DNA from: Polynucleobacter necessarius
Lineage (GTDB): Bacteria > Pseudomonadota > Gammaproteobacteria > Burkholderiales > Burkholderiaceae
Assembly (NCBI RefSeq): GCF_900096765.1
Contig: NZ_LT615228.1
Span: 688,669-752,668 of the forward strand
DNA length: 64,000 nt
Reading direction: 5' to 3'
The first letter of the stretch is position 1, and each line of letters opens with the position of its first letter. The position numbers and the translations under genes were made by a program. This document shows, piece after piece, positions 186-52,163 of this stretch. The notes beneath the pieces are model-generated. The model was not told where the DNA came from. It ran no database searches and saw only the letters and a list, made by a program, of their open reading frames with translations.

Positions 186-1170
186 TCAATCCAGGGTAAT
201 GTTTGCTGACTTAATTACTTTGCTCCAATAAGGAAGCTCCTTCTTCACCAAGGCTTCTGTAGCAGATGGCGTAAGGTAGCGCAGTTCAACTCCAGCAGCA
301 TCGGCACGTTCTTTAACCTCCGGCATGGCTAGGGATTTCTTAACGGAGTCAGTTAATTTAGTTACGATAGGCGCAGGTGTGCCTGCTGGGGCAAACAATC
401 CAACCCATGACTCCAACTGAAATGCTGGTAAACCCGCTTCAGCTGTCGTTGGGACATTAGGCATTCCTGGGTGACGATTCTTACTTCTTACCAGTGACTG
501 CCAAGCCTTTTAGCTTACCACTCTGAACATGCTGCATTACCGAGGGAGGTGTAGAGATAAACACTTGCACCTGCCCTGCTAGGACATCTTGAATGGCAGG
601 CCCTGAACCTTTGTATGGAACATGAACCATATCAACACCCGTTATTTGCTTGAACATTTCAGTACCAATATGAGATACCGAGCCGTTTCCTTGAGATGCA
701 TAGTTCAACTTACCAGGGTTGGCTTTCGCATAAGCAATAAATTCTTTTAGATTGTTTACGGGCACCGAAGGATGAACGGCAATCACATTCGTGGAAACAG
801 TTAGCAAAGCAATTGGTGAAAAGTCCTTAATCGGATCCCAAGGCAATTTATCCATCAATGCTGGATTACCGACGTGATAACCGGAATAGGAAATCAAAAG
901 GGTGTATCCATCCGGCTTTGCCTTGGCAACGAACTGATAAGCTGTGTTGCCACTAGCCCCGGGCTTGTTGTCAACAATCACTGCTTGCCCTAAAACTCTG
1001 GTTAAAGGCTCACTCAATAGGCGCGCTGAGGTATCTACTAAGCCACCCGGTGGATTTGGAACAACCAAGACTACTGGTCTATCTGGAAAAGTTTGAGCTG
1101 CTACAACATTAAAGAGTGCTGTAAAACCAAAAGCACAAACGCACTTTAGAAGTAATCGAATTAAGTTCAT
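186..1170 (-). pseudogene. TTT-family Bug solute-binding protein, frameshifted by a 7-bp duplication
   Basis: This is a periplasmic substrate-binding protein of the tripartite tricarboxylate transporter type (TctC/Bug). The start chosen is ATG 1170 (MNLIRLLLK), which gives a signal peptide ending near VVAAQTFPDRP. The family's PGG loop (NPPGGLVDT), the GYTLL segment and HVPYKGSGPA are all present. The frame closes after VTGKK at TAA 481-483. The rest (NRHPGMPNVPTTAEAGL, then about 85 residues to 186) continues in another frame. The break is an exact tandem copy of TTCTTAC (478-484 and 485-491). Deleting one copy restores a continuous frame of normal family length. No tctA/tctB membrane genes are nearby, as is usual for the many orphan Bug proteins of Burkholderiales. 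The ligand is unknown. Export of the truncated product is possible but its C-terminal lobe would be missing. Confidence 0.85.
478..491. repeat. 7-bp tandem duplication inside Bug gene
   Basis: TTCTTAC occurs twice with no gap (478-484, 485-491). The second copy causes the frameshift of the surrounding gene; removing either copy reads VTGKNRHPGMPNVP without interruption. Confidence 0.95.
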
Positions 1171-1202
1171 CACTAGCCCTATTGAATTCTGAATCATTGA
1201 AT

Positions 1203-2324
1203 CTATCGCTGACCAATCTTGACATTACCAAAGACAGCCTGCGCCTCTCGCGGCAAGCAACGCCAATACCTTTCGTTTGCTGTGACTGTAGCATTTAATG
1301 CCGCAGCAGCTTCCCAACCCCAGCGTGGCTTATACATAAATGCACGAGCTAAAGCGATCAAATCTGCGTCACCCGCTTGCAAAATTGCCTCTGCCTGAAG
1401 TGGATCAGTAATTAAGCCCACCGTTATTGTTGGTAGTCCAGATTGATCTTTCACAATCTTTGCAAAAGGCACCTGATGATTTGGTCCTAAGGAAATCTGC
1501 TGCTTTGGAGAAATACCACCAGAGGAAATGTGAACAAAATTACAACCCAAAGGTTTGAGTTGCTGTGCAAAACTAGCGGTTTCTTGAGGTGTCCAGCCGC
1601 CCTCAATCCAATCGCTTGCTGAAATACGAATTCCCAATACCCCTTTATATGCGCTTCTTACTGCTGCAAACAGCTCCAACGGAAAACGAATACGATTTTC
1701 AAATGAACCGCCATATTCATCGGTGCGCTGATTTGCTATTGGAGATAAAAATTGATGCAATAGATAACCATGAGCACCATGTAATTCGATCCCGTCAATG
1801 CCGCAGCGTTCCGCATGCTGCGCTGATTCCACAAATGCTCTGATAAGATCTTTTAACTCAGTCTTAGAGAGTTCATGTGGCAGACGCTCTCCATCGAGTT
1901 GCGGGATAGCTGAGGGAGCAAGCGTCTCCCAGCCGCCCTGACCTACAGGCAATAACTGCCCTCCATCCCATGGAGTAGCGCTCGAGGCTTTACGCCCAGC
2001 ATGAGCTAGTTGAATAAACACTGGTGTTGCTGGCGCCAGCTTTCTGGCCCTTTCTAATTTGTCTCTTAAAGCCGCTTCAGTACGGTCATCCCATAAACCC
2101 AAACATGCTGGAGTGATACGGCCCTCAGGAGTAACCCCCGTGGCTTCGATAATAAATAGTGCGGCACCGCTGTTAAGAAGGTTGCCCCAGTGCATCAAGT
2201 GCCAATCTGTGGCCTCGCCATTGTGGGCTGAGTATTGGCACATCGGGGCAACTACGATGCGATTTGCCAATTCTAGGGGTCCACGGGGGGAATTTAAGGT
2301 ATAGCTTGAAAAAAGCAAACTCAT
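1203..2324 (-). CDS. NADH:flavin oxidoreductase of the old yellow enzyme family (YqjM-like)
   Basis: This is an FMN-dependent TIM-barrel ene-reductase of 373 aa that uses NAD(P)H to reduce activated C=C bonds. ATG 2324 is chosen over the TTG one codon upstream; AAAGG lies nine bases before it. APMCQYSA places the Cys near residue 29, the hallmark of the YqjM class. QLAHAGRK follows near 105-112. The HxxH substrate pair is at H182/H185 in HGAHGYLLHQF, and RTDEYGGSFENR is the FMN/barrel signature. The C-terminal part has VGLITDP and the phosphate-binding ADLIALARAF. It is intact and of normal length. It is divergent from the dehydrogenase at 2486, with 159 bp between them, and lies just downstream of the start of the broken Bug gene. 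The physiological substrate is not evident; detoxification of enones or terpenoid breakdown are family possibilities only. Confidence 0.93.
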   Translation of the reverse strand: MSLLFSSYTLNSPRGPLELANRIVVAPMCQYSAHNGEATDWHLMHWGNLLNSGAALFIIEATGVTPEGRITPACLGLWDDRTEAALRDKLERARKLAPATPVFIQLAHAGRKASSATPWDGGQLLPVGQGGWETLAPSAIPQLDGERLPHELSKTELKDLIRAFVESAQHAERCGIDGIELHGAHGYLLHQFLSPIANQRTDEYGGSFENRIRFPLELFAAVRSAYKGVLGIRISASDWIEGGWTPQETASFAQQLKPLGCNFVHISSGGISPKQQISLGPNHQVPFAKIVKDQSGLPTITVGLITDPLQAEAILQAGDADLIALARAFMYKPRWGWEAAAALNATVTANERYWRCLPREAQAVFGNVKIGQR

Positions 2325-2485
2325 CAAAATGCCTTTAAAAGTCGAAAAAATGGATCAAAATACGAAAAACGCCTTAAAGCGATAGAATACTTAAAAAGTA
2401 GAATAATCGAGACAACAAAGTCCTGCAGGCTCATGGCCTAATGGCTTAATTTACCCACAACTACCCATATCAAATACAAAAGACT

Positions 2486-4007
2486 ATGAACGCACCAAAA
2501 GCCTTTGATTCAAAAGCAGATATCGGCCATTACGTAGGCGGTTCCGTTGTTAACCCTCAGGATGGTCGATTTGCAGACGTCTATAACCCAGCTACTGGCG
2601 CTGTAGCCCGCAGAGTTGCTTTAGCAAGTCGCAAAGAAGTCGACGCTGCAGTTGCAGTAGCGCAGCAGGCTTTTGCCTCCTGGAGCCAAACTAGCCCCTT
2701 GCGTCGTGCTCGTATACTTTTTAAGTATCTGGAGTTATTTAAATGCCAATCGTGATGAATTGGCTGCCATCATTACCGCAGAACACGGCAAAGTATTTAC
2801 CGACGCACAAGGTGAAGTGACTCGCGGCATTGAGATCGTGGAGTTTGCGACCGGCATTCCTGAATTACTGAAAGGTGATTACACAGAGCAGGTATCAACC
2901 GACATTGATAACTGGGTCATGCGTCAACCCTTAGGTGTTGTAGCAGGTATTACCCCTTTCAACTTCCCAGTCATGGTCCCTATGTGGATGTTCCCAATGG
3001 CCATCGCTTACGGAAACACATTTATCCTCAAACCAAGCCCGACCGATCCATCGGCCTCACTGTTTATGGCTAATTTACTCAAAGAAGCCGGCTTGCCTGA
3101 TGGCGTATTTAACGTAGTTCAGGGTGATAAAGAGGCTGTGGATGCCTTAATTGAAAACCCAGACGTGAAGGCTGTCAGCTTTGTTGGCTCTACGCCAATC
3201 GCCAATTACATTTATGAGCGTTGTGCGCATTTTGGCAAGCGCTCCCAGGCATTGGGCGGCGCCAAGAACCACATGGTCATCATGCCCGATGCCGATATTG
3301 ATAAAGCAATTGATGCATTGGTTGGCGCAGCATACGGATCTGCTGGCGAGCGTTGCATGGCAATCTCCGTTGCTGTTCTTGTTGGCGATGTTGCAGAGAA
3401 AATCATTCCAAAACTCATTGAGCGCACTAAGACTCTCAAAGTCAAAAATGGTATGGAACTTGATGCCGAGATGGGTCCAATAATCACCAAAGCAGCCTTA
3501 GATCGAATTACAGGCTACATTGATAGCGGTGTTGCCGCAGGTGCAAATCTACTCGTTGACGGCCGTAATTTCAAAGTTCCGGGCCATGAAAACGGCTTCT
3601 TCCTTGGTGGCACATTGTTTGACAACGTCACCCCCGATATGAAAATTTATTTAGAAGAAATCTTTGGCCCAGTTCTTTCTTGCTTACGAGTTGCTAACTT
3701 CACTGATGCTTTGAATCTGGTGAACTCTTGTGAGTTCGGTAATGGGGTGGCATGCTTTACCAGTGATGGCAATATCGCACGTGAATTTGCTCGTCGTGTT
3801 CAGGTTGGCATGGTTGGTATTAACGTACCTATTCCAGTTCCCATGGCATGGCACGGCTTTGGCGGCTGGAAAAAGTCCCTCTTTGGAGACATGCATGCCT
3901 ATGGCAAAGAAGGGGTCCGTTTTTATACCAAGCAAAAGAGCGTCATGCAGCGTTGGCCAGAGAGCATAGCCAAGGGCGCTGAGTTTGTGATGCCCACATC
4001 CAAATAA
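2486..4007 (+). pseudogene. mmsA: Acylating methylmalonate-semialdehyde dehydrogenase, single-base frameshift
   Basis: This is a CoA-acylating aldehyde dehydrogenase of about 506 codons that would convert methylmalonate semialdehyde to propionyl-CoA in valine and pyrimidine breakdown. The first frame (2486-2755) ends after [17 protein letters not shown]. The second frame carries on as [18 protein letters not shown]. An extra T in the TTT at 2738-2740 explains it: without it the text reads YLELLNANRDE, which matches the family length. After the break the protein is complete: NAD-binding [13 protein letters not shown], the catalytic Cys in [11 protein letters not shown], and GPVLSCLRV near the end. 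A hairpin terminator follows at 4025. The function is clear from the family. Whether the lesion is genetic or a homopolymer read error cannot be decided from sequence alone. Confidence 0.85.
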
Positions 4008-5380: not shown

Positions 5381-6880
5381 TCAAGAACCCAATAAAGTCC
5401 GTCGCATTGCATCAAGACATACGCTCATTAAGGCGGCTGGGATAATGCCGATAACCAGAACTAAGATGCTATTAAAACTCAACAAGCCTTTAGCAAAGCC
5501 AGACCCTGATACGGTCACCTCATGATATGGCTCATCAAAATACATCACCTTAACAACACGCAAGTAGTAGAACGCGCCAACCAATGAAGCCAATACGGCA
5601 ATCACCGCCAAGAAAGTATGCTCTGCGTCAACTAAGGCCTCTAGCACCCCTAATTTAGCAGCAAATCCAACGGTTGGGGGTATACCAGCCAAAGAGAACA
5701 TCATCACCAGACCAATAAAGGCAAACCATGGATGCTTCTTGTTAAGCCCTTTAAGACCCTCAAGGGTCTCGCAATCATATCCTTTGCGCGAGAGCACCAT
5801 CAACAGCCCGAAAGTACCTAAAGTTGTCAGCACATAGGTGATGGCATAGAACAAGGCTGCGCTAAATGCATGATCATCAAAAACAGAAAGCATGCCCAAG
5901 AGTACAAATCCCATCTGCGCTATTGCAGAGTAAGCCAACATCCGCTTAACATTGGTCTGGGCGATGGCAGTCACGTTACCCACAACCAACGAAAGAACGG
6001 CCAACAACACCAACATCGGCTGCCAGTCTCCCATCAGTGGTAATAAAGTATTAACCAGAAGGCGGAACAACAAAGCAAATGCAGCTAACTTTGGAGCGGC
6101 TGCGATCATTAAAGTAACGGCAGTTGGCGCACCTTGGTAAACGTCTGGTACCCACATATGAAATGGAACCACTCCAAGCTTAAATGCCAAGCCGGCAACA
6201 ATAAACACCAAACCAAAGGCCATCACCAAATGGTTTACTCTAGGATCCGCAACCGTTTTAAAGATCTCTAACAGATCTAAAGAGCCAGTAACGCCATACA
6301 ACATAGACATGCCATACAACAAGAAACCAGAAGCTAAGGCGCCTAGTACAAAATACTTAATACCTGCTTCAACACTCTTCTCGCTGTTATGACGCATGGC
6401 TACTAAAGCATAAGTAGGCAATGCCATGAGCTCCAAGCCAAGGTAAAGAGTCAAGAAATTAGCGCCTGAGATCAAGACCATTTGACCTAGCAATGCCAGG
6501 AGCACCAAAACTATGAAGTCTGGGCGAAATAAAGCACGATCCGTTAAATACTGCTTTGAATAAATCAGGCTGACCAGTACCGCGCCGCAAGAGCAAGCTT
6601 TCAAAAGGTTTGATAGTGGATCAGATTGAAATAAACCATTCATGGCAACCAGTGATACATCGCCCAAACGACCAACAAAAGCAAAGATCAAGTAGATCAA
6701 CAAGATCAATGAGAAAAAGTACACAAATCCAACGCCGCGAGGGGTATAGAAAATATCCTGCTCAACACCAGGGGTTGAAGTTACTCTCTCGCGAACATAA
6801 ACACTTGCCACCAACAATAAGCAGGCAGCAATAAGTAAAACGAGTTCCGGCAGGATGGCGTATAGGTCGAATGCTTGCAT
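5381..6880 (-). CDS. nuoN: NADH-quinone oxidoreductase subunit N
   Basis: This is the last gene of the complex I operon, a 499-aa antiporter-like membrane subunit that forms one of the proton channels. It is almost wholly hydrophobic, with the Proton_antipo_M domain spanning roughly residues 130-430. Conserved charged residues lie in the helices [10 protein letters not shown] and [19 protein letters not shown]. Its ATG (6880) would lie ten bases after the ancestral nuoM stop (TGA at 6891-6893). A one-base insertion in nuoM now makes nuoM run 100 bp into this gene, so the two coding regions overlap in different frames. Translation of nuoN may be affected by that altered coupling. The subunit itself looks intact. 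Confidence 0.96.
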
Positions 6881-8358
6881 TTGCTTTTACTCAGAGTTTT
6901 GCTAACAGCAACGTGCTGCAGCAGATTAATTACAGCAGGATGAATGATGTCGGTGAATGGTTTTGGATATACGCCCATACCAAGCACGCAGATGGTTAAC
7001 ACTGCCATCATGAAATACTCACGTCCATTTAGATCTTTGAGCTCTTCAACATATTTATTGGTAACGGCGCCAAAAAATACGCGCTTGACCATCCACAAGG
7101 AATACGCCGCGCCAAGAATTAAGGCCGTAGCAGCCAAGATGCCGATAACAAAGTCATAATCGACAGCAGCCAGAATGACCATGAATTCTCCTACAAAGCC
7201 TGATGTTGCAGGTAGTCCGCAGTTAGCCATTGCCATTAATACTGCAAAGGCGGTAAATGCTGGCATGCGGTGAACCACGCCACCGTAATCAGCAATTTGA
7301 CGGGTATGCATCCGATCATACAAAACACCTATAGATAAGAACATGGCGCCAGCAACAAAGCCGTGTGAAATCATTTGCACGATACCGCCCTCAATCCCTA
7401 ATGGACTAAAGAGAAAAAAACCTAAAGTGACAAAACCCATGTGTGCTACAGATGAGTATGCAACCAGCTTTTTCATATCCTTCTGTACCAAAGCTACGGC
7501 ACCAACATAAATTACCGCCACTAAAGATAAGAAAATGACAAATGGGCCGAGATATTGGCTTGCATCTGGAGCAATTGGTAAAGAGAAACGCAAGAATCCA
7601 TAAGCACCGAGTTTTAACATAATCGCTGCCAACACAACAGAGCCGCCTGTTGGAGCCTCAACGTGGACATCTGGCAACCAGGTGTGCAGAGGCCACATCG
7701 GCACCTTTACAGCAAAAGCCATAAAGAAGGCAAAGAACAATAAGATTTGCTCAACGATATCCAAACGCGCATTTTGCCAAGTGAGAATATCGAAAGTGTT
7801 GGTGACGTTATACAAGTAGAGCATTGCAATCAGGGTCAACAGTGAACCAAGCAATGTATATAAGAAGAACTTGAATGCGGCATAAATACGGTTATGACCA
7901 CCCCATACACCAATGATGATGTACATCGGTATGAGCGTAGCTTCAAAGAAAACGTAAAACAACAAAGCATCTAACGCAGCAAAGACACCAATCATTAATC
8001 CAGAAAGGATCATGAAAGAAGCCATGTACTGAGATACTTTGGTATCAATCACTTCCCATGCTGCAATCACCACGAAAATGTTGATGAAAGCGGTTAAGAC
8101 AATAAACCAAACAGAGATGCCATCGATGCCAAGATGGTAATTAATGTCGTAGCGAGGAATCCAACTGACCTTCTCAACAAACTGCATCCCAGCATTGGCG
8201 ATATCAAAATTGATAATCAGCGGGAGTGTGGCAACAAATCCTAGAATTGCGCCAAAGAGTGCTAACCAGCGTACGCCAGCAGACGGCTTCTCAGACCCAT
8301 AAAACAAAATAATGAGTCCAAAAACGATTGGGGTCCAGATTGCGAAAGAAAGAATCAT
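6781..8358 (-). CDS. nuoM: NADH-quinone oxidoreductase subunit M with an aberrant C-terminal tail
   Basis: This antiporter-like proton-pumping subunit of complex I reads as 525 aa, about 35 more than expected. The core is normal ([21 protein letters not shown], then [11 protein letters not shown]) up to LLQHVAVSK. There an AAAA run (plus strand TTTT 6897-6900) has one A too many. With three A's the text reads SKL then TGA at 6891-6893, just before the nuoN ATG. As it stands, nuoM continues as [13 protein letters not shown] and so on across the nuoN start. The tail lies after the last membrane helix, so the protein may still assemble. The start codon is also unusual: a 14-bp duplication supplies a second ATG upstream (see the repeat at 8348). 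Confidence 0.92.
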
Positions 8359-8375
8359 AGTGAAAGAATCATAGT
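8348..8375. repeat. 14-bp tandem duplication over the nuoM start codon
   Basis: GAAAGAATCATAGT is present twice without a gap (8348-8361, 8362-8375). On the minus strand each copy carries ACTATGATTCTTTC, hence two ATGs. The upstream ATG (8372) opens a five-codon frame MILSL whose TGA overlaps the nuoM ATG (8358) as ATGA. Confidence 0.95.
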
Positions 8376-8394
8376 GGCTACTTAAGTCAAAGGC

Positions 8395-19894: not shown

Positions 19895-19920
19895 TCCTGA
19901 GTCGTTCTCCTGAGTCGTTC
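19895..19920. repeat. 13-bp tandem duplication that doubles the nuoA ribosome-binding site
   Basis: TCCTGAGTCGTTC occurs twice without a gap (19895-19907, 19908-19920). On the minus strand each copy is GAACGACTCAGGA, containing AGGA. The proximal AGGA is 5 nt from the nuoA TTG; the distal one is 18 nt away. Confidence 0.95.
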
Positions 19921-19946: not shown

Positions 19947-19960
19947 ATTATTCATTATTC
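19947..19960. repeat. 7-bp tandem duplication upstream of nuoA
   Basis: ATTATTC is repeated (19947-19953, 19954-19960) between nuoA and tRNA-Leu. It is AT-rich, so chance is more likely here than for the longer units. Confidence 0.6.
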
Positions 19961-25262: not shown

Positions 25263-26810
25263 TTAAGGCGTCATTTGAGCATTTAATTTCGCCTGACTAG
25301 GGTCATGCAGCTTATTCAAAGCCGATAAATATGCCTTGGCTGATGCTGCAATGATGTCGGGATCAGTACCAACTCCATTCACAATGCGACCGCCTTTTGC
25401 TAAACGTACCGTGACTTCGCCTTGCGATTGGGTTCCTGAAGTAATGGCATTGACAGAATAGAGCAACTGCTCTGCCCCACTCTTAGCAATCTCTTCGATT
25501 GCGTTCAAGCTTGCATCAACTGGACCATTACCCTCTGCTTCAGAACTAACCTCTTTATTCCCCATGCGGAAAGTAACCCGTGACTTTGGACGCTCACCAG
25601 TTTCTGAATGTTGGCTAAGTGAAATGAAGTGGTAATGCTCACCCTCTTCTGCAGCAGCAGAATCAGACATGATGGCAATGATGTCCTCATCAAAAATTTC
25701 TGCTTTTTGATCAGCCAAAGCTTTAAATCGAGCAAATGCCTCATTAATGTCCGCCTCTGCTTCTACTGTGACACCCAATTCTTGCAAGCGTTGTTTGAAT
25801 GCATTGCGACCAGATAATTTCCCAAGAACAATCTTATTGGTTGTCCAGCCCACATCTTCAGCGCGCATGATTTCGTAAGTTTCACGATTCTTCAGAATAC
25901 CATCTTGGTGAATACCAGAGGCATGCGCAAAAGCGTTGGCACCAACCACCGCCTTGTTTGGTTGAACTACAAAGCCAGTAATTTGAGAGACCAATTTAGA
26001 GGCCGGCACGATTTGGCTGGCATCGATACCACAAACCATATCGAAGTAATCCTTGCGTGTGCGCAAGGACATCACAATCTCTTCCAAGGCCGTGTTACCC
26101 GCACGCTCACCCAAACCATTGATAGTGCACTCGATCTGGCGAGCACCGCCAATCTTGACTCCAGCCAATGAGTTGGCAACAGCCATTCCTAAATCGTTAT
26201 GGCAATGCACTGACCAAATGGCCTTATCTGAATTGGGTACGCGGGTTCGCAAAGTTTTGATAAATTCACCATACAGCTCAGGGGTTGCATAGCCAACCGT
26301 ATCAGGAATATTGATGGTGGAAGCGCCTTCATTAATCACGGCCTCGACTACTCTGCACAAGAAATCCATTTCAGAGCGATAGCCATCTTCTGCAGAAAAT
26401 TCAATATCAGAAGCTAAGTTTCGCGCAAAACGAATAGAACGCTTAGCCTGCTCCAATACCTCTTCTGGTGACATGCGCAACTTGACCGCCATATGCAAAG
26501 GACTGGTAGCCAAAAACGCGTGGATGCGTTTAGCATTCGCTGCTTGTAAGGCATCCGCAGCACGAGTAATGTCTTTGTCATTGGCTCTAGCCAAGGAGCA
26601 AACAATTGAATCCTTCACCGCAGCAGCAACTGCCGAAATCGCCTGAAAGTCTCCTTCAGAGCTAGCAGCAAAACCGGCCTCAATCACATCAACCTTGAGG
26701 CGCTCTAACTGACGAGCAATACGGACCTTCTCATCTTTAGTCATGGATGCTCCTGGCGATTGTTCGCCATCACGCAAGGTGGTATCAAAAATGATTACTT
26801 TGTCGCTCAT
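25263..26810 (-). CDS. leuA: 2-isopropylmalate synthase
   Basis: The first committed enzyme of leucine synthesis, condensing acetyl-CoA with 2-oxoisovalerate (515 aa). ATG 26810 is preferred over the adjacent GTG because GGAGAG sits five bases upstream. The catalytic TIM barrel begins with [18 protein letters not shown]. The metal ligands are in [15 protein letters not shown] and [12 protein letters not shown]. The C-terminal LeuA allosteric domain (from about residue 390, [19 protein letters not shown]) is complete, so leucine feedback is expected. A terminator after pssA suggests that leuA has its own promoter. Confidence 0.96.
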
Positions 26811-26860
26811 CACTACTCTCCGGTTTGGATATCGATTGGTTTAATACTGTATTGCAATCT

Positions 26861-26899: not shown

Positions 26900-26921
26900 A
26901 GTGGTTAATGAGTGGTTAATG
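26900..26921. repeat. 11-bp tandem duplication downstream of pssA
   Basis: AGTGGTTAATG occurs twice without a gap (26900-26910, 26911-26921) in the untranslated stretch between the pssA stop and its terminator. It is non-coding and so gives no frame effect. Confidence 0.95.
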
Positions 26922-27046
26922 AAGTTTTTTATCTCATCAACTCAGGCCTTACCCGCCCCAAGCGTATGCTTAGTGCCAGCAGAAGGAGGTTAGATAAAGG
27001 TGGGAAATTCATCAACATGGAATTAATATACCTGAAAAATTCGGAT

Positions 27047-30183: not shown

Positions 30184-30184
<1 letters not shown>

Positions 30185-31971
30185 TACAGATCCTCACTAC
30201 CCAAAAGCATTTCAGTAATTCCCTTGCCCGCTTGAACCATCGGCCAAACGTTTTCTTCTGGGTCAGTCTGGAAGTCCATAAATACCGTGCGATCCTTTAA
30301 GCGAATTGCTTCTTTGAGAGCGCCCTCTACATCGGATTTTTTCTCGATACGCATACCAACGTGACCATAAGCCTCTGCCAACTTCACAAAATCAGGCAAT
30401 GAATCCATGTAGGAGCTGGAATAGCGCTTGTTATAAGTCAACTCTTGCCATTGGCGAACCATTCCCAAGTAACGATTGTTTAAAGAAACAATTTTCACTG
30501 GTGTGTCGTACTGCTTGCAGGTTGAGAGTTCTTGAATACACATCTGAATCGAGCCTTCACCAGTAATAGTGAATACATCCTTTTCTGGAAATGCTTTCTT
30601 GATACCCATTGCGTACGGCAAGCCAACTCCCATGGTTCCTAGACCACCAGAGTTGATCCAACGACGTAGTTTATCAAACTTGTAGAACTGAGCGGCCCAC
30701 ATCTGATGCTGGCCTACGTCAGAGCAAATAAATGCATCACCGCCTGTCAGCTCCCATAATTTTTGAACCACGTATTGTGGTTTAACAATTTGGGATGCCT
30801 CGTCATACTTCAAGCAATCTTTTTTGCGCCACTCGTTGATCTGATCCCACCAAGCAGCGACTTTATCGCCGTTTTTACGAGGGCCAGCAGCTTTGAGCTG
30901 AGCTGTCATCTCAACCAATACTTCTTTGAGATTACCAACAATAGGCACATCCACTTTCACACGCTTAGAGATCACGGATGGATCGGTATCAATGTGAATA
31001 ATTTTGCGGGGATGACTTGCAAAGTGAACAGTGTTTCCAATCACGCGATCATCAAATCGAGCGCCAATCGCAATCAATACATCACTGTGTTGCATTGCCA
31101 TATTGGCTTCGTATGTTCCATGCATACCCAACATGCCGACAAACTGAGGGCTGGTCCCTGGGAAGCCACCAAGACCCATCAAGGTATTGGTAACTGGATA
31201 ACCCAATAGATCCGCGAACTCTTTTAGCTCAAGTGCGGCATCGGCTAAGATCACGCCACCACCGGTATAGATGTATGGGCGCTCTGCCTCTTGCAACAAA
31301 GTAACTGCTTTGCGAATTTGTCCACTATGCCCCTTGATCACAGGGTTGTAGGAACGCATTTCCAAGGTCTCTGGATATACAAAAGGACCCTTAGCTGCTG
31401 AAACGTCCTTAGGAATATCAATCAATACAGGGCCTGGACGACCAGTCTGGGCAATGTGAAAAGCTTTTTTCAGCACCAGTGGCAAATCTCTAACATCCTT
31501 GACAAGGAAATTATGCTTTACCACCGGACGAGTGATGCCAACAGTATCAGCTTCCTGGAATGCGTCTTCACCAATCGCATACGTGGGTACGTTACCACTA
31601 ATAATCACCATTGGGATCGAATCAGTGTAGGCAGTGGCAATACCGGTTACCGCATTTGTCACACCAGGACCCGAGGTTACTAGTGCAACCCCAACTTTAC
31701 CGGTAGCGCGTGCATAACCATCAGCCGCGTGAACCGCCGCTTGTTCATGGCGTACCAATATGTGCTCGAACTTGTCTTGTTTAAAAATTTCATCGTAGAT
31801 AAAGAGAACGGAACCGCCTGGGTAACCCCAAACATATTCAACACCCTCTTTGTGCAGTGCATACACGAGCATCTCAGCGCCAATGATTTCTGGGGCTGCT
31901 GCTACGGAATTAGTATTTGCTGAGTCTTTGTTAGCTTTGCTAGCTAAGAATTCGGCGCTGCTTGTATTCAT
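30184..31971 (-). CDS. ilvB: Acetolactate synthase large subunit
   Basis: The thiamine-diphosphate enzyme for the first common step of branched-chain amino acid synthesis (595 aa). The catalytic Glu lies in ILVRHEQAAVHAADGYARATG near residue 75. The FAD region is around GARFDDRVIGNT, and the ThDP-Mg motif is TGEGSIQMCIQELSTC followed by NNRYLGMV near 480-510. ATG 31971 fits the family, but a 10-bp duplication has placed another, out-of-frame ATG (31981) at the better distance from AAAGGA. Translation initiation may therefore be weakened. Confidence 0.95.
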
Positions 31972-31981
31972 TTGTATTCAT
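31962..31981. repeat. 10-bp tandem duplication over the ilvB start codon
   Basis: TTGTATTCAT is repeated (31962-31971, 31972-31981). On the minus strand this is ATGAATACAA twice. The upstream ATG opens a 13-codon frame ending at TAG 31940-31942 that overlaps ilvB out of frame. Confidence 0.95.
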
Positions 31982-32064
31982 TTTCTTTCGTCCTTTGCAA
32001 TTTTCGGCAAAAAATTATTTGGTCTGTTCTGTCTCCTGCTTTTGGCCTGAGTTCGAACGGCGCT

Positions 32065-32082
32065 GCTACCGGAGCTACCGGA
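32065..32082. repeat. 9-bp tandem duplication in the ilvB leader
   Basis: GCTACCGGA occurs twice in a row (32065-32073, 32074-32082), in the space between ilvB and the divergent sigma gene. Confidence 0.9.
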
Positions 32083-32084
32083 AA

Positions 32085-32106
32085 AAAACCACTTCAAAAC
32101 CACTTC
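32085..32106. repeat. 11-bp tandem duplication in the ilvB leader
   Basis: AAAACCACTTC occurs twice in a row (32085-32095, 32096-32106), three bases from the 9-bp duplication. Confidence 0.92.
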
Positions 32107-32195: not shown

Positions 32196-32776
32196 ATGGC
32201 ATCAGCCCAAGAACTATCTGACTTTCTGAGCAGCATTGAGCAGCGCGCATTCAAGCAGGCTGTTTACGCCGTGCGTGATGATGATGCTGCGTTGGATATT
32301 GCTCAAGATGCCATGATCAAGTTGGCTGAGAAATACGGGGATAGGCCTGCAAGTGAGCTGCCCTTGGTTTTTACTCGAATCCTGCAAAACCGAATTCATG
32401 ACTGGTTTCGTCGCCAAAAAGTCCGGAACGCCTGGGTCACCCTATTTTCGAGCATGGGCAAGAAAACAGACGAAACCGAAGATTTTGACCCTTTAGAGTC
32501 ACTTTCTGCGCCAGATGATAGTGAAATTCACCAAGATGGGTCACAAAAACTAGAACAAAGTCAGCTTTTACAGGCTTTGGAGTCAGAAATAGAGAAATTA
32601 CCTGTACGTCAACGAGAAGCCTTCCTGATGCGTTATTGGGATGAGCTAAGCATTACTGATACTGCCCTGATACTGCCAAAGCGATGGGTTGTAGCGAAGG
32701 CAGTGTCAAAACACATTGTTCTAGAGCATCACAAACCTTAGCTAAAGCACTGAAATTAAAAGGAATTACCCTGTGA
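32196..32776 (+). pseudogene. ECF-type RNA polymerase sigma factor, frameshifted by an 11-bp duplication
   Basis: An extracytoplasmic-function sigma factor of the Burkholderiales group that precedes DUF3619 genes. Region 2 is intact (AVYAVRDDDAALDIAQDAMIKL, then PLVFTRILQNRIHDWFRRQK). Region 4 begins at LPVRQREAFLMRYWDELSITDTA near residue 139. There CTGATACTGCC is duplicated (32656-32666, 32667-32677). The present frame ends at 32741 after LILPKRWVVAKAV, without the helix-turn-helix. Deleting one copy gives TAKAMGCSEGSVKTHCSRASQTLAKAL, the normal region 4.2, and ends at TGA 32774-32776. That restored stop overlaps the GTG of the next gene (GTGA), which strongly supports the reconstruction. 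The present 181-aa product should bind core polymerase but lacks the -35 recognition helix. Confidence 0.9.
32656..32677. repeat. 11-bp tandem duplication in the sigma factor gene
   Basis: CTGATACTGCC twice without a gap; a net +11 shift, equal to +2 in frame, matches the frame difference between the start (32196) and the restored stop (32776). Confidence 0.97.
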
Positions 32777-34428: not shown

Positions 34429-36737
34429 TTATATCTCTCGTAGGCATTCAATGGCAGTGGCATTTTGAATGCCATTTAAAAAGTGGTAGCCAGAAACTAA
34501 CGTGGCGGCAATACCAATACCTAGCCCCATAATGATCGATTGAGCAAATGCATTAAATTCAATCTCCATCACATAGCGACCCAAAGCCCAAGCACCAACA
34601 CCCGCAGATATACCCGCTAGTAAACCTGCAACCGATCCAATGATCAATAGCTCAACTGTCGCTATGCGAGCCAAGACGGCGCTCTTGAAGCACCCATGGC
34701 CTTAAGCAAGGCTGCATTACGGTAGCGCACATCCTGGGTAGCAGAAAGCGCTGCCAATAACACCAAAATGGCTGCCACAATCGTAAAAGCAAACAAGAGC
34801 CCCAATGCACCAGATAATTTATCAAGCACTTCTTGGATTTGGCGCAAGGAAGTAATTGGGGCGCTAATCTGCTCCCCTGCCACCTCGAATGTCAGCATGT
34901 CGCCCTGTTTCAGTCGCAAGGTTTTGGCAATGCCTGTCTCAATCGAAATCTGCGGGGTATCTCCTTCAATCCACTTACCCGAAACAACTTGGTTGCTCTG
35001 TGGCAACTCATTCGTGTAGGAAAGATTGAACTCTCTATCCAACAGTCGCTTCGCGTTTTCTTCTGCATAATCTGCAGGCGAAACATCGCTCCCATTAACC
35101 TGAATTAAACGCCCTCTCACCATGGGATAAAAATGGGGGGTGGCGATTGCCCGAGATTCCAATAATTTGCTAATTGCCCCCTTCTGATCCTCTTGAATAT
35201 TGATCATGAATCGATTGGGGGCATCGGCTGGAATATTAGCTTGCCAAGCCTTCAATAAATCTTGACGCAATATAAGAATCATTAAAAGTGCCATGATGGC
35301 AACTCCCAAGGCCGTAATTTGCAGTATGGCAAATCCTGGGCGGCGACCAATCGCAATCACTGCAAAGCGCCCTGCAAAATCTTGAAAAGTCAGCTTACTA
35401 GTGATCCAAAGAACTAGATAAGATATTGCTGCAAAGGCAGCAATCGAGGCAGTGCAACTGATGGCTACCCATAAAGCCAACTTCCAGTCGCGCGCAGCAA
35501 TCCAAATCAGCGCACTGCAAGAGCCCAAACCCAAAAACAAAATCCAAAATAAGGTCAGGCGATTGACCTCAAACTCTTTGCGGATCAACCGAATGGGTGA
35601 AACCTGAATTAAGGCAGTCAGCGGATAACTGGCAAAGCCAATTAATAGTATCCAAGCAAATAAAGCGCTCCACAAAATAGGCTCAACTGATACGTCAGGC
35701 AAATTCGCTAGCAGCAAACTGCCTAATACAACCGTCAAGATATTTTGCGCAAGGTAGGCGAGCAATGCGCCGAGCAGAGTGGCGATCAAACCAAGAGATA
35801 CCAGGGTTTTCATTTGCTTTCGCAGAATGACGGCTCTGGTAGCGCCAAAGCACTTCAGTACCGCACAGACATCCGCTTGCTTTTGCATATAGCGATGAGC
35901 AGACAGACCAATTGCAACCGCTGCAATCATGGCTGTTAATAAAGAAACTAAGGAAAGAAACTGTTCCGCCTTATCCAAAGTCTTACGCATAGTCGGCTGG
36001 GCAGTTTCTAGTGTCTCTACACGAATGCCACGCATAGACTTTGAGTCTATTTCTTGCATGAGCCATAACTGATAAGACTTCACTTGAGCATCATCACCAG
36101 CTAGTAGAAGACGATAAGTCACTCTGCTACCCAAGCCAATTAATCCCGTGGATGGCAAATCATCCAATGACATCATGATGCGAGGAGCAAAATTCATAAA
36201 CCCTGCTCCTCGATCAATTTCTTGCGTGATCACTCCAGCAATGACAAACTGTCGATCGCCCAAGCGCAACATTTGACCTGCTTGAGTATCCAAGTTATTT
36301 AATAAAGCAGGTTCTACCCAAACGGTGCCACTCTTTGGCCCCTTTAGTAAAGGTGATGCGCTTGCGGGACTTTGCTTAATGGTCAGTTGACCGCGCAAGG
36401 GATAGGTCGCACTGACCGCTTTGATTGAGGCAAGTTTGCTAGATGACTCTGTGCTTGCCATACTCGGAAAGACGATGGTTTGAGCAATCTGCAGACCTCG
36501 AAGCTCAGCCTCTTGAATAAAAGCTTCTGGAAGTGCTTGGTCTGCTGCAATCAGTAAATCGGCAGCAATCAGCTGACGGGCATCAAACTCAAATGCGCAA
36601 TGCAAGCGATCCGCCAGAAAGCTAACACTCGTTAGTGCAGCTACCGACAAAACGAGAGCAAATAATAAAAACCTCAGCTCTTTAGACCGCAGGTCTTGTC
36701 TTAATTCCCGAAAGAGGCTACAGAAATGAGATATCAA
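34429..36737 (-). pseudogene. FtsX-like ABC transporter permease (YbbP-like), frameshifted by 2 bp
   Basis: A large permease of about 770 codons with an N-terminal membrane segment, a periplasmic MacB-like domain (residues about 60-260), and two FtsX domains: FLSVVSLLTAMIAAVAIGLSAHRY near 265, and LLFAFTIVAAILVLLAALSATQD with RYRNAALLKAMGAS near 665. The frame stops at the TAG beside LAARIAT because GC is doubled at 34679-34682. With one GC removed the text reads GASRAVLARIATVELLIIGS and runs on to 34429, adding the last two helices. The start is TTG 36737, overlapping the SDR stop. The partner ATPase gene is not in the window. These systems move lipoproteins or lysophospholipids in known cases; the substrate here is unknown. 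Confidence 0.85.
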
Positions 36738-42187: not shown

Positions 42188-42193
42188 ATAAGA

Positions 42194-42270
42194 TGGTGCG
42201 GCTGGCAGGAATTGAACCCACGACCCCTTGGTTCGTAGCCAAGTACTCTATCCAGCTGAGCTACAGCCGC
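42194..42270 (-). tRNA. tRNA-Arg (ACG)
   Basis: A 77-nt cloverleaf on the minus strand. The acceptor GCGGCTG starts at 42270, the D arm is GCTCAGCTGGATAGAGTAC, the anticodon arm is CTTGG-CTACGAA-CCAAG with anticodon ACG, the T arm is GTGGGTTCAATTCCTGC, and discriminator A and CCA are encoded at 42194-42197. It is divergent from greB. Confidence 0.97.
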
Positions 42271-47907: not shown

Positions 47908-48507
47908 ATGCAAAAACTAGTACTTGCTTCGAATAACGCCGGAAAGCTAAAAGAGTTTCAGGCGCTATTGGCTCCTTTAAATTTTCAAGTCATTCCTCAG
48001 GGCGAGCTTGGTATACCCTCAGCCGCAGAACCGCATCACACCTTTATTGAAAATGCCCTTGCTAAAGCGCGCCATGCCAGCGCTGCTAGCGGGCTTCCAG
48101 CCCTAGCAGACGATTCCGGTATTTGCGCACACGCCCTCAACGGAAAACCAGGGGTTCTCTCTGCTCGTTATGCGGGCGAGCCAGCTAATGATGTGGCTAA
48201 TAATAAAAAATTGATTTTGGATTTAAGCCAGGCTGCCGATCATGGTGCGCACTATGTTTGCGCGCTCGTGTTTGTCAATAGCGTAAATGACCCAGAGCCC
48301 CTGATCGTGCAAACGCGTTGGTACGGACAGATCGTCGCCCAAGCAAAAGGATCTAATGGGTTTGGCTACGACGCCCATTTCTTTTTGCCTGATCTGGGGG
48401 TGACGGCTGCCCAGCTTGAACCCGCACAAAAGAATTTAATCAGCCACCGTGGCCAAGCTTTGCGTGAACTCATCTCTCAACTTCAATCGCGCAGCAACCG
48501 TGCTTAA
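47908..48507 (+). CDS. rdgB: RdgB/HAM1 family non-canonical purine NTP pyrophosphatase
   Basis: Removes dITP, XTP and related bad nucleotides (199 aa). ATG 47908 (MQKLVLASNNAGKLKEFQ) is 20 bp after the rph stop; an upstream frame inside rph is ignored. The family blocks LASNNAGKLKEF, LPALADDSGICAHAL, GVLSARYAGE and GSNGFGYDAHFFLPD are all seen. Confidence 0.96.
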   Translation: MQKLVLASNNAGKLKEFQALLAPLNFQVIPQGELGIPSAAEPHHTFIENALAKARHASAASGLPALADDSGICAHALNGKPGVLSARYAGEPANDVANNKKLILDLSQAADHGAHYVCALVFVNSVNDPEPLIVQTRWYGQIVAQAKGSNGFGYDAHFFLPDLGVTAAQLEPAQKNLISHRGQALRELISQLQSRSNRA

Positions 48508-49690
48508 TCTGGGGTCCAATACCATTTCCTTAAGCGCGCTGCCACCGCTCGCACTCTATATTCACTTTCCCTGGTGTGAGAGGAAGTGCCCCTATTGCGA
48601 CTTTAATTCCCATCAAATAAAAGACAGAGTTAGTGGCAAATCCGGCTTTGATGAACAACGCTATATCAAGGCATTGATTGCCGATTTAGAAACAGAGCTT
48701 CCCCATATTTGGGGCAGACAAGTTCACAGTATTTTTATTGGTGGTGGCACACCCAGCCTGCTCTCACCCAAGGGAATGGATGAGCTCCTATCTTCAGTTC
48801 GCGCTCGCGTAAATTTAGAACCAGATGCTGAAATCACCATGGAAGCAAACCCAGGATCCATTGAGGCAGGCAAATTTTCCGCTTTTGCTAAATGCGGCAT
48901 TAATCGTGTCTCCATAGGTGTGCAAAGTTTTCAGGATGAGCAGCTTAAAGCCCTGGGGCGTATTCATAATGGAGATGAAGCAAAACGCGCCATCCACATT
49001 GCGTTGGAACACTTCAAATCTGTAAATTTAGATTTAATGTATGGCTTACCCCATCAAAGTCTTGAAGCGGCTAAGTCTGATGTCCAAACTGCTTTAATGT
49101 TTCAGACCCCGCATCTATCTCTCTACAATCTGACTTTAGAACCCAATACCTACTTCGCCAGTTTTCCACCCAAGCTTCCTAGCGAAGATGAGATTGATGC
49201 CATCTTTGAACAGAATCTAGAGTTACTAACCCAAGCAGGCTATCAACGCTATGAAGTGTCTGCGTATGCTAAGAAAGATCAGGAGTGCAAACACAACCTG
49301 AACTACTGGCGTTTTGGCGACTACATTGGTATTGGCGCGGGAGCTCATGGGAAGATTTCATTTCCCAATAAGATTACTCGCCAAGTACGTGAGCGCCATC
49401 CTGACACTTACATGCAGGCAATGGAGCAAAAAGGCAATGCACTGATTGAGACTCAAGAGATTGCCGCTAAAGATCTGCCATTTGAATTTATGCTCAACGT
49501 ATTGCGTTTATCTGCCGGTGTTGATACCAACACTTTTAGCGAGCGCACTGGCCTACCCTTGCACACTATTAGCAAGGCCCTAGGACAAGCTACAAAAAAA
49601 GGCTTGTTAGATGAAAACCCCAGCAAACTCAAAGCGAGTGATCAGGGTTTACGCTATCTGAATAACTTACAAGAGCTCTTTCTGAGCTAA
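48500..49690 (+). CDS. hemW: Radical SAM heme chaperone HemW
   Basis: A radical-SAM protein related to coproporphyrinogen dehydrogenase that delivers heme (396 aa). GTG 48500 is preferred; it overlaps the rdgB stop by 8 bp. A TTG or ATG within rdgB (48449) is possible. The cluster motif CERKCPYCDFNSH is near residue 25. GGGTPSLL and EANPGSIEAGKF follow, with NRVSIGVQSFQDEQLKALGR. The C-terminal wing is complete, and the CNxDxYR-type motif of true HemN is not seen. Confidence 0.9.
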   Translation: MLNLGSNTISLSALPPLALYIHFPWCERKCPYCDFNSHQIKDRVSGKSGFDEQRYIKALIADLETELPHIWGRQVHSIFIGGGTPSLLSPKGMDELLSSVRARVNLEPDAEITMEANPGSIEAGKFSAFAKCGINRVSIGVQSFQDEQLKALGRIHNGDEAKRAIHIALEHFKSVNLDLMYGLPHQSLEAAKSDVQTALMFQTPHLSLYNLTLEPNTYFASFPPKLPSEDEIDAIFEQNLELLTQAGYQRYEVSAYAKKDQECKHNLNYWRFGDYIGIGAGAHGKISFPNKITRQVRERHPDTYMQAMEQKGNALIETQEIAAKDLPFEFMLNVLRLSAGVDTNTFSERTGLPLHTISKALGQATKKGLLDENPSKLKASDQGLRYLNNLQELFLS

Positions 49691-49706
49691 AGTCATCCTA
49701 TAAATA

Positions 49707-49729
49707 AAAACGACAAAGAATGTCGTTTC
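49707..49729. terminator. Hairpin downstream of hemW
   Basis: AAACGACA-AAGAA-TGTCGTTT lies 18 bp past the hemW stop. On the plus strand no long T run follows, so it is a weak terminator or an mRNA end-protecting stem. Its T-rich side faces the minus strand, where no gene ends. Confidence 0.5.
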
Positions 49730-49744
49730 ACCATGGAGACATAA

Positions 49745-50765
49745 ATGATTCATCAAGATCTGCGTCGTAGAGTATTTTCAAAACTGTTCGTCGGCATCGC
49801 TTGCGTCATCATTTGCCTAGCCTTATCAGAGACGGCATTCGCACAAGTAAAAAATTGGCCAGATAAACCGATCAAACTCATTGTTGGCTTTCCTCCTGGC
49901 GGTGGCTCTGATGCTATTGCGCGCATCATTGCCATCAATCTTTCTCAAATGTGGGGTCAACAAGTAGTGATTGATAACCGCGGCGGCGCTGCCGGTACGA
50001 TTGCTGCAGATTTGGTAGCAAAATCAACTCCAGATGGATATACCTTAGGGCTAGCACACGTGAACGCCCTTTCCATCATCCCTGCCTTAGGACAAAAAAT
50101 GTCCTATAACGCCAGCACCGATTTCACGCCCATCGTGCTTTTAGGGATTACGCCAAATATTCTGATTGCTAACGTTGATACGCCCGCGAAAAATGTGAAA
50201 GACTTAGTGACCTACCTGAGACAAAATCCTGGTAAGGTCAGCTTTGGCTCTGCAGGTAATGGCAGCACCCAGCACCCAGCACCTCGCATACGAGCTGATG
50301 ATGCATATGGCGGAAACACAAGCCTTGCATATTCCTTACAAAGGCAGTGGCCCTGTTTTGGTTGATTTGATCGCTGGCCACATCACGTATGCCTTTGAGA
50401 CAATGAGCGCGGCAACACTCCATATTCAAAGCGGCAAAGTTATTCCTCTCGCACAGACACGAACTAAGCGCTCACCAGCTTATCCCAATCTTCCAACAAT
50501 GGAACAGTTAGGATTTATTGGCTTTGAAGCTACCGCCTGGTACGGCCTAATGGGCCCTGCCAATTTAGATCAAAAAATCGTGGCAAAAATTAATGCTGAT
50601 GTGAACACCATTTTGCGCAAACCAGAGATTATGGCAAAGCTAGCCGAAGTTGGCGCAGAAGATGGGGGCGGTTCTCCTGCTGCCTTTAGCAAATTCATTG
50701 TGAGAGACCGTAGCCAATGGGCTAAGTTAGTGAAAGACGCTAAGCTTCAGGTCGATTTGAATTAA
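49745..50765 (+). pseudogene. TTT-family Bug solute-binding protein, frameshifted by a 7-bp duplication
   Basis: A third Bug-type periplasmic binding protein. The signal peptide ends near ETAFAQVKNWPDKPIK, and KLIVGFPPGGGSDAIARI is the family loop. The frame shifts at GNGSTQHPAPRIR. The cause is AGCACCC at 50264-50270 repeated at 50271-50277, with a near-third copy behind. Removing one unit gives GNGSTQHLAYELMMHMAETQ, and the rest continues normally (LHIPYKGSGPVLVDLIAG, ending VDLN at 50765). The restored length is about 338 codons, normal for the family. The present product would end at about residue 206. Confidence 0.9.
50264..50277. repeat. 7-bp tandem duplication inside Bug gene
   Basis: AGCACCC twice, followed by AGCACCT (50278-50284). 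The slippage-prone run lies where the coding frame changes. Confidence 0.93.
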
Positions 50766-50856
50766 TCAAAATCCAGAAAATGATCCATTAAAAAGGGGCT
50801 CACGAGAGCTTCTCCCTTAACCTTATGCTCTAGAGCAGTACATCAGAGATATAAAC

Positions 50857-50888
50857 AATCCCAACATACACACTGGGATTTTGTATTT
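50857..50888. terminator. Hairpin between the Bug pseudogene and tRNA-Ser
   Basis: AATCCCA and TGGGATT pair across a 10-nt loop. On the plus strand TTGTATTT follows, serving the Bug gene. On the minus strand the stem lies about 8 bp after the tRNA CCA and is followed by GTTTATAT. Confidence 0.6.
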
Positions 50889-50977
50889 GGCGGAAGAGGT
50901 GAGATTCGAACTCACGAAGGACTTTCATCCTCGCCAGTTTTCAAGACTAGTGCATTCAACCGCTCTGCCACTCTTCC
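50888..50977 (-). tRNA. tRNA-Ser (TGA)
   Basis: A 90-nt class II tRNA on the minus strand. The acceptor GGAAGAG starts at 50977, the anticodon arm is CTAGT-CTTGAAA-ACTGG with anticodon TGA, a long variable arm follows, then the T arm GTGAGTTCGAATCTCAC, discriminator G and an encoded CCA at 50888-50890. Confidence 0.96.
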
Positions 50978-51022
50978 TTATATTTGAAGCCATTTGAACC
51001 GTATTTAGATTCAAGCCATGAA

Positions 51023-52163
51023 TTATAAAGAACTTTTGATTTGTCCTTCTAAATAGCTGGCAATGGCCAAGCTAGAAGTCAGCCCAGGGGATTCAAAGCC
51101 ATATAAATTGAAGAGCCCTTCGAGACCGTGACTATTGGGGTCATCAAAGGAGAAGTCTCCCGCAGGGGCATCAGGGGGAACAATTTTGGCTCTTACCCCG
51201 GAATAATCAGGTTGTAGAGCACCGTCTTTCAAGCCAGGCCAATACCTTCTCACCGCCTCATAAAAGCCCTGACTACGCCCGGGATCGACCGTGTAATCAA
51301 TTTGCTCTTCACCATCTATATCAAGCCACTGCACATCTGGTCCAAATTTTGCCTGACCACCCATATCTAAAGTAAGGTGCACACCTAGTCCACCAGGCTC
51401 TGTCTGGTATGGGGTAGATCAAATGGGAAAATGGTGACTTTCCTGATAAAGAAAAATAATTTCCTTTTGCAAAATACGCCTTCGGAATTAGCTCTTTTGG
51501 AAGTCCCTCAATTTTTTGTGCCACGGCAGGCGCACTCAAGCCAGCGCAATTAATGAGTAACTTGGTTTGTAATTGCATGCCATCAAGACCGCCGATTAGT
51601 AACTCATAACCGTCACGCGCATCTTGTCCGATGGGTTTTGCACTAATAAGCGGAGATTGATAAGCAATCATTCCACCCGCATCCTCAAAGCCACCAAGCA
51701 AGGAGAGCATATAAGCGTGGCTATCCACAATGCCGGTGCTTGATGACAAAATAGCAGCCGCACATTGTAGGTTAGGCTCCATGGCTTTTGCCTCATCCCC
51801 TGAAAGCAATTTCATTTTCGGGACACCATTATTGCTTGCTCTATATAAAATCGACTCTAAGTCGCTAATTTGCTGATCATCAGTAGCCACAATCAACTTG
51901 CCATAAGCTTGCGTAGCAACTTGATGACTGCGACAGTACTCATAGAGCAGTCGATTGCCCTCTACGCAAAGCTTAGCCTTTAAGGAATTTTTAGGATAGT
52001 AGATTCCAGCATGAATTACTTCACTATTGCGTGCGCTACTGATGGTGCCAAAGGAGCTTTCGCGCTCAAGCAAGATGGTTTCTCGTCCTTGAAGGGCCAT
52101 TTCGCGTGCGACTGCCAAACCAACTACCCCGGCACCAATGACAACACAATCCACCCTCTCCAT
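51023..52163 (-). pseudogene. NAD(P)/FAD-dependent oxidoreductase (LhgO-like), frameshifted by a 4-bp duplication
   Basis: A D-amino-acid-oxidase-fold flavoprotein resembling L-2-hydroxyglutarate oxidase. The N-terminal dinucleotide site is VVIGAGVVGLAVAREMALQG near residues 6-25. EVIHAGIYYPKNSLKAKLCVEG is typical for the LhgO group. The frame breaks after HLIYPIPD: the plus strand has TCTG doubled at 51399-51406. Taking one away gives [25 protein letters not shown] and runs on to 51023, about 379 codons in all. The present reading ends at 51321 with unrelated residues, losing the substrate domain's last strands. Confidence 0.88.
51399..51406. repeat. 4-bp tandem duplication in the oxidoreductase gene
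   Basis: TCTG twice (minus strand CAGA-CAGA). One copy removed restores the family sequence. Confidence 0.8.

Follow-up and report, generated by a model that had tools for sequence, protein, structure and literature searches.

Bacterial genomes in decay are expected to lose DNA by deletion, and a window of 64,000 nucleotides from Polynucleobacter necessarius (C1:688669-752668 of a single-contig genome of 1,825,583 bases, G000 in our set) raises the question of why genes here are inactivated by added exact short copies. A sequence-only reading of this window had listed eleven short tandem duplications, called them the main visible mutation type and proposed a lineage-specific slippage or templated-repair process that makes pseudogenes, possibly linked to loss of a repair or exonuclease function. 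We found that a lineage-specific excess of duplications that makes pseudogenes is genuine and distinguishes this genome from the relatives sampled, reflecting a real, insertion-biased process of insertion and deletion (indel) without junction homology that is specific, among the lineages sampled, to that of P. necessarius.

An excess of short exact duplications across the genome

We scanned the whole P. necessarius genome, shuffled sequence and relatives for exact tandem repeats, and found 119 with units of 9-30 bp in the 1.83 Mb of P. necessarius (65.2 per Mb), 53 of them (29.0 per Mb) with unit lengths not divisible by three. Two Markov versions of the genome contained 16 and 9 such units, with 2 and 4 non-multiples of three, and a pool of relatives presumed to be free-living (1.23 Mb; G002, G014, G004, G016 and 15 named loci) contained 20, with 3 non-multiples (P = 3e-9 against the 53 here). 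G002, sampled for 680 of its 2173 kb, yielded 9 units (2 not divisible by three), and 19 loci from other Burkholderiales, covering 389 kb, yielded 21 (54.0 per Mb), 3 of them non-multiples (7.7 per Mb). From gene decay and knowledge of the genus we take G002, G004, G014, G016 and the named loci to be free-living, and P. necessarius to share a ciliate-endosymbiotic life with G017, in which 280 of 1550 kb held 11 units, 2 of them not divisible by three (P = 0.017 against P. necessarius). Alignable DNA is 76.3% identical to that of P. necessarius in G017 and 76.2% in G002, neither being the nearer. Our set contains 18 genomes of the genus, and among named records the psd-like protein of the window is matched best by Polynucleobacter and related Burkholderiales.

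Outside open reading frames (ORFs) of at least 100 amino acids, our measure of intergenic density, the count was 52 in 167.5 kb for P. necessarius (31.0 per 100 kb), compared with 4 in 88.5 kb for the pool (4.5 per 100 kb, P = 2e-6) and 2 in 44.7 kb for G017 (4.5 per 100 kb, P = 3e-4). The excess is absent from the sampled free-living-type relatives and from the sampled part of G017. By chromosome tenths the intergenic rate runs from 6 to 59 per 100 kb, a spread that we judged not significant (chi-square about 12, 9 degrees of freedom). The window itself carries 7 units of at least 9 bp, where its Markov versions average 0.3 and 0.7 and the density in relatives would predict about 1.

Simple scanning for units of 4-8 bp did not set P. 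necessarius clearly apart from relatives or Markov sequences, and therefore only alignment-based counts support those sizes. In alignments of P. necessarius with G002, extra exact copies fell on the P. necessarius and G002 sides in ratios of 22:4 at 2 bp, 10:2 at 4-5 bp and 2:0 at 7-8 bp, with 9:0 for non-multiples of three between 10 and 20 bp and 21:6 for multiples of three up to 30 bp. This 9:0 asymmetry, with single-copy relatives at nine of the eleven listed window sites, shows that the duplications compared in this way are derived in the P. necessarius lineage.

Most listed window sites are derived insertions

All of the repeats quoted by the sequence-only reading are present in the sequence at the coordinates given for them. 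We polarised the sites by alignment to a set of 32 relative sequences, the counts below covering aligning rows only. Nine of the eleven listed sites are insertions of a unit present in single copy in relatives, while 19947 shows no insertion and 50264 could not be polarised. The nine derived sites and the 50263 repeat are as follows.

478..491, tandem duplication of 7 bp where the open part of ORF 481-1197 (minus strand), which we take to be a TctC-like gene, has its 3' end; 7-bp insertion relative to 3 of 3 aligning relatives.
8348..8376, a 14-bp unit duplicated in tandem (run 15) at the start of ORF 6781-8358, presumably an NADH dehydrogenase subunit; 14-bp insertion relative to 5 of 5 aligning relatives.
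19895..19920, intergenic 13-bp tandem duplication; gap of exactly 13 bp in 12 of 24 rows (2 partial), the rest being noisy intergenic alignments.
26900..26922, intergenic 11-bp tandem duplication (run 12) upstream of ORF 25263-26813, assumed to be leuA-like; 19 of 29 rows show a gap of 10-12 bp.
31962..31983, a 10-bp unit duplicated in tandem (run 12) at the start of ORF 30184-31971, which we take as ilvB-like and whose frame stays open; gap of exactly 10 bp in 19 of 28 rows, 4-9 bp in the rest.
32065..32082, intergenic 9-bp tandem duplication; 20 of 28 rows have a 13-bp gap that merges with the 32085 event, and 2 have no gap.
32085..32106, intergenic 11-bp tandem duplication directly after the previous one; gap of 13-14 bp in 20 of 28 rows, partly covering its neighbour.
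32656..32677, plus strand, frameshifting 11-bp tandem duplication in an extracytoplasmic function (ECF) sigma factor gene (ORF 32196-32741), whose G002 orthologue matches NF006550, RNA polymerase sigma factor; gap of exactly 11 bp in 21 of 26 rows (1 partial).
51399..51406, minus strand, frameshifting 4-bp tandem duplication in an oxidoreductase gene (ORF 51321-52163), for whose G002 orthologue the nearest model is L-2-hydroxyglutarate oxidase, with a score below its cut-off; 4-bp gap in 3 of 3 aligning relatives.
50263..50283, plus strand, 7-bp unit in three copies (run 14 at lag 7) across ORFs 49745-50365 and 50244-50765, one broken gene that we assume to be TctC-like.

Single-copy relatives are known for three of the four coding sites in which the sequence-only reading had removed one copy to restore a protein. 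At 50264, none of the 32 relative sequences offered a nucleotide homologue with which to polarise the 7-bp repeat, and the triple 7-mer may be a two-to-three expansion. In a scan of 6-40 bp units, arrays of at least three copies occurred only there and at C1 about 1717571-1717663, where two adjoining runs of a 15-bp unit hold about 3.5 copies each. The two-base doublings, also quoted earlier, are weak cases: at 34679, 10 of 20 rows have a 2-bp gap, and at 55527 the sole aligning relative does.

The repeat at 19947..19960 was rejected as a duplication, having the same length in 13 of 17 fully covered rows and a 7-base gap in none; as the alignment has it, the second 7-mer arose by substitution. 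Among window repeats of 7-8 bp absent from the earlier list, those at 3193 (same length in 5 of 5 rows) and 28142 (30 of 30) are, on the same kind of comparison, chance repeats, and at 53793 the alignment was too poor for a polarity call. The almost touching pair at 32065-32106 is followed by a third duplication (32656) 550 bp further on, a possible clustering of events. Elsewhere in the window (42193-42270), the start of a plus-strand ORF overlaps a minus-strand tRNA-Arg gene, and the true ORF start is probably downstream.

The indel spectrum of broken genes

We next compared genes with G002, for which 601 frames of at least 100 amino acids gave 505 with a match, 408 aligned and 390 genes compared; 18 genes below 60% identity are left out of the frameshift counts, as are 14 compound gap clusters, and merging three repeated events brought the total from 107 to 104. 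The 104 simple frameshifts of P. necessarius comprise 29 insertions and 23 deletions of 1 bp, 12 and 5 of 2 bp, 15 and 8 of 4-8 bp, 7 and 4 of 9-30 bp, and 0 and 1 longer. Run lengths in this tally are capped for 1- and 2-bp events, so that longer homopolymers are indistinguishable there. Exact tandem copies account for 11 of the 2-bp insertions, 12 of those of 4-8 bp and 4 of those of 9-30 bp. The description of duplications as the main visible mutation type does not extend genome-wide: exact duplications of at least 2 bp make up 27 of the 104 simple frameshifts, against 52 indels of 1 bp, with nonsense changes on top (92 counted, an inflated number). They are, however, 27 of the 52 frameshifts of at least 2 bp, and are thus the largest class of indels of that size rather than of mutations overall.

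G017, read against P. necessarius ORFs of at least 150 amino acids with the same pipeline, likewise gave 104 simple frameshifts, with 19, 9, 4, 1 and 0 insertions and 49, 6, 9, 5 and 2 deletions in the same size classes. Insertions and deletions therefore stand at 63:41 in P. necessarius versus 33:71 in G017 (P = 5e-5), and exact tandem insertions of at least 4 bp at 16 of 104 versus 1 of 104 (P = 1.6e-4). In the reverse control, G002 against P. necessarius ORFs (353 genes, 18 dropped), we found 36 frameshift clusters, with 6 exact extra copies of at least 2 bp in P. necessarius and 1 in G002; at 1 bp there were 3 and 6.

Misplaced starts and antisense frames inflate both the nonsense counts and the fraction of genes flagged as broken. 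Flagged shares were 121 of 390 for P. necessarius against G002, 84 of 207 for G017 against P. necessarius ORFs, and 62 of 353 (77 stops) for G002 in the reverse direction; among relatives taken as intact they were 7 of 58 in G014, 3 of 60 in G004 and 6 of 50 in G016, with 8, 4 and 8 stops. Frameshifts are seldom false, the same 58, 60 and 50 genes showing 1, 0 and 1 clusters.

The frameshifting duplications of at least 4 bp occupy 16 sites, corresponding to 17 G002 genes as one site matches two paralogues. When 14 of these were searched against NCBIfam, 3 had no family and 11 did: amidase, sigma factor, oxidoreductase, efflux-type outer-membrane channel, cyclic di-GMP phosphodiesterase, SoxZ, cyanophycin-associated ABC transporter, autotransporter repeat, acyl-CoA dehydrogenase, TRAP transporter and acetate symporter. 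Judged from their names, none of the 11 looks essential.

Selection, age and the question of artefact

Only 10 of the 53 non-multiple units lie inside ORFs (counting ORFs of at least 60 amino acids and positions more than 30 bases from either end), compared with 5713 of 6844 background repeats of 4-5 bp (83%; P = 1.5e-24), and the other 43 lie outside ORFs or at ORF ends; of the units divisible by three, 46 of 66 lie inside. With 83% expected in ORFs, so few there indicates that these are mutations filtered by selection and not random errors. A sequencing or assembly artefact should sit in ORFs about as often as the background repeats do. Such an origin might be read from copies that are mostly identical and junctions that are known from the assembly alone, yet a few copies are already diverging and 20 of the 29 one-base insertions fall outside runs of at least three, unlike homopolymer read errors; we consider an artefact very improbable.

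The duplications are young. Among non-multiples of 13-30 bp we counted 27 exact pairs and 6 with a single mismatch; the corresponding numbers were 0 and 2 for a Markov control and 0 and 0 for G002. The copies, being mostly identical, should therefore postdate the separation from G002 by far, provided that reversion does not continually remove older ones.

The same distribution, with 43 units outside ORFs or at their ends and others breaking genes, is also what would be expected if relaxed selection alone had left the products of an ordinary background process unpurged in a degenerating genome, and the inflated count of 121 of 390 broken genes agrees with such degeneration. G017, however, with 84 of 207 genes flagged as broken, has a free-living-type intergenic density and a deletion-biased spectrum, making relaxed selection by itself an improbable explanation.

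Junction homology is at the level of chance

Slippage or flap re-annealing predicts an ancestral short direct repeat at the site, visible as a match that exceeds the unit length. Among the 53 non-multiple units, homology of 0, 1, 2, 3 and at least 4 bases occurred in 34, 12, 4, 2 and 1, and random artificial duplications gave 30.1, 14.8, 5.3, 1.8 and 0.9; among coding events of at least 4 bp, 13 of 16 had none. With junction homology at chance, slippage, the process named by the sequence-only reading, fails to explain most duplications. Inverted repeats were not enriched, a stem of at least 7 occurring at 5.7% of sites versus 9% of random intergenic sites.

Replication slippage could still be thought to have been unmasked by missing mismatch repair. 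Loops this large lie outside the usual range of mismatch repair, which counts against that idea, as does the homology that slippage requires at the primer end and that is not seen for units of at least 9 bp. In its favour, one-base indels make up half of the simple frameshifts, and mutS and mutL are absent. We found no mutS match in P. necessarius or in G001, G002, G004, G007, G008, G010 and G011 (7 of 11 same-genus relatives), whereas mutS was present in G005, G006 and G009 and partial in G003; mutL showed the same distribution, apart from weak partial matches in G004 and G007. According to PMC5644125, both genes are missing in all 20 genomes of the PnecC group, to which our P. necessarius genome may belong. 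Among relatives lacking mutS, repeats were sampled in G002 (680 kb) and G004 (80 kb), and the sampled parts nevertheless have a low repeat density. As mutS is also missing in 7 of 11 relatives, its loss is not sufficient, and the loss of mutS and mutL is most likely an inherited background rather than the cause; we hold unmasked slippage to be quite improbable.

The suggestion that a named repair function had been lost fares no better beyond these two genes, whose absence is shared with low-duplication relatives. The recJ and xseA frames (611 and 410 amino acids) are free of stops, exonuclease VII being judged from xseA, and polA is full length. Sequence motifs located open frames for recA, uvrA, uvrB, uvrD, recG, radA, recN, ruvB, mfd, dnaE, dnaQ, ssb, rnhA, gyrA and mutM, in a short-motif screen in which misses carry little meaning. 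With recJ and xseA undamaged, a suspected exonuclease defect is kept alive as a candidate by one residue of DNA polymerase I, which differs in P. necessarius alone among ten sampled sequences.

A proposed fill-in process

Fill-in followed by end joining needs no homology and gives exact copies, and we therefore take it as the most likely class of mechanism. Staggered breaks or paired nicks would leave 5' overhangs that are filled in before the ends are joined, so that the overhang is copied exactly. The setting would be cells without mismatch repair, which is also missing in many relatives, and without Ku and LigD, and relaxed selection, probably under endosymbiotic life, would let the duplications persist and break genes. 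As Ku and LigD are absent, the joining enzyme would be something else, the replicative ligase being our default guess. Overall, we give about even chances to a process acquired in this lineage that inserts a second exact copy of about 2-20 bp, rarely up to 29 bp, beside the first, without homology beyond chance, by a fill-in mechanism in a repair-deficient background.

Several observations weigh against this proposal. Once multiples of three are counted, 65.2 per Mb is not far above the 54.0 per Mb of the other Burkholderiales loci, and only the non-multiples stand out; exact copies of 1 bp, moreover, show no asymmetry in the whole alignments (100 in P. necessarius, 113 in G002). The pseudogenes of G017 look older, with 37 compound gap clusters versus 14, and some old duplications there may be unrecognisable. 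In P. necessarius, the duplications now present could seem young if tandem copies revert. Searches of the genome with Ku (PF02735) and LigD (TIGR02779) gave no match, leaving no dedicated end-joining pathway in sight. The broad spread of sizes fits no single staggered-cutting enzyme, and a search for boundary motifs at 52 duplications returned a weak A/T preference, which probably reflects their intergenic setting, and no motif strong enough to name a nuclease. The junctions, finally, are those of the assembled sequence.

A candidate change in DNA polymerase I

The polA gene (C1:1147604-1150411) lies outside the window and encodes a full-length protein identical to that of G002 at 860 of 950 positions. 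Numbered from the MTKHRLL start, residue 186 is Asp instead of Asn in the 5'-nuclease motif GDxxDN-PG, which reads GDAVDDVPGV here and GD[AT]VDNVPGV in all nine other Polynucleobacter sequences sampled (G002, G017 and seven others). Among the best 5 of 13 PDB matches, the chains 6vde (DNA polymerase I, presumably that of Mycobacterium smegmatis), Taq polymerase and 9l56 likewise have Asn. The Escherichia coli polA alleles Gly184Asp and Gly192Asp fall in the same loop. Speculatively, a 5' flap nuclease weakened by Asn186Asp may be the trigger of the fill-in process, leaving 5' overhangs to be filled in rather than trimmed.

The same residue could instead point to a flap-nuclease defect of the kind seen in yeast rad27 (FEN1) mutants, in which unprocessed Okazaki flaps would re-anneal and be ligated, duplicating the flap. 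Asp at this position is unique to P. necessarius in the comparison above, and, according to PMC5677150, rad27-deleted yeast gains more insertions than deletions, including direct-repeat-mediated insertions of up to about 100 bp. Those duplications, however, depend on direct repeats, of 3-12 bp in earlier studies and of 1-21 bp in PMC5677150, whereas homology here is at chance. PolA is also otherwise well conserved and, on the structural side, the comparison covers 5 of 13 PDB matches.

Nor is the base rate of such changes tiny. Ten window proteins were aligned with as many as 84 sequences, the nuoD-like protein having too few to count. P. necessarius differs at 6 of 1470 otherwise invariant sites, and nine other focal sequences differ at between 0 and 2, which hints at relaxed selection in intact genes; within Polynucleobacter, P. 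necessarius differs at 10 of 2248, G016 more often (15 of 2252) and the others at 0 to 6. With so many replication and repair genes available, a single change of this sort is unremarkable. We therefore view a flap-nuclease defect as unlikely, although worth keeping in view, and treat Asn186Asp as a candidate and a testable lead, as yet unproven, rather than a finding. It is distinctly unlikely, in our estimate, that the full scenario holds, in which a bacterium free of Ku and LigD has acquired a homology-independent fill-in duplication mutator that one change in the PolA flap nuclease set off in cells lacking mismatch repair and that is reversing the deletion bias usual in genome decay.

Relation to known systems

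No title among the literature matches listed describes this pattern in bacteria. P. necessarius and the deletion-biased G017 offer a natural contrast on what sets the indel bias of bacteria, and the mutS-lacking relatives, without the pattern in their sampled parts, suggest that loss of mismatch repair alone is not enough. Comparison names one testable residue, PolA 186; if the change in the nuclease shifts the balance from trimming to filling in, a single replication enzyme would be linked to the course of genome reduction.

Known fill-in duplications, at CRISPR breaks and in Top2 mutants, reportedly involve Ku-dependent joining and narrow size ranges. They resemble the duplications in P. necessarius in being exact copies of an overhang made without homology, but here Ku and LigD are absent and sizes run from 2 to 29 bp.

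The indel patterns of bacterial pseudogenes were reportedly the subject of Danneels et al. in 2018. Small indels of bacterial pseudogenes are deletion-biased, according to PMC10292909, citing Danneels et al. 2018. Our analysis resembles such studies in reading neutral indels from the broken genes of reducing genomes, and differs in its outcome, an insertion bias by tandem duplication in place of a deletion bias. With the PnecC group, as described in PMC5644125, P. necessarius shares its genus and the lack of mutS and mutL; this loss is no distinguishing mark, being common to relatives with few duplications.

Yeast rad27/FEN1 mutants, as described in PMC5677150, pass from ABA to ABABA through direct repeats, with some palindrome-linked template switches, unlike the duplications described here, which have no homology beyond chance and no enrichment of inverted repeats. 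What the two have in common is an insertion-biased indel spectrum, short duplications of unique sequence genome-wide and, in P. necessarius, a candidate lesion in the nuclease domain that is the bacterial counterpart of FEN1.

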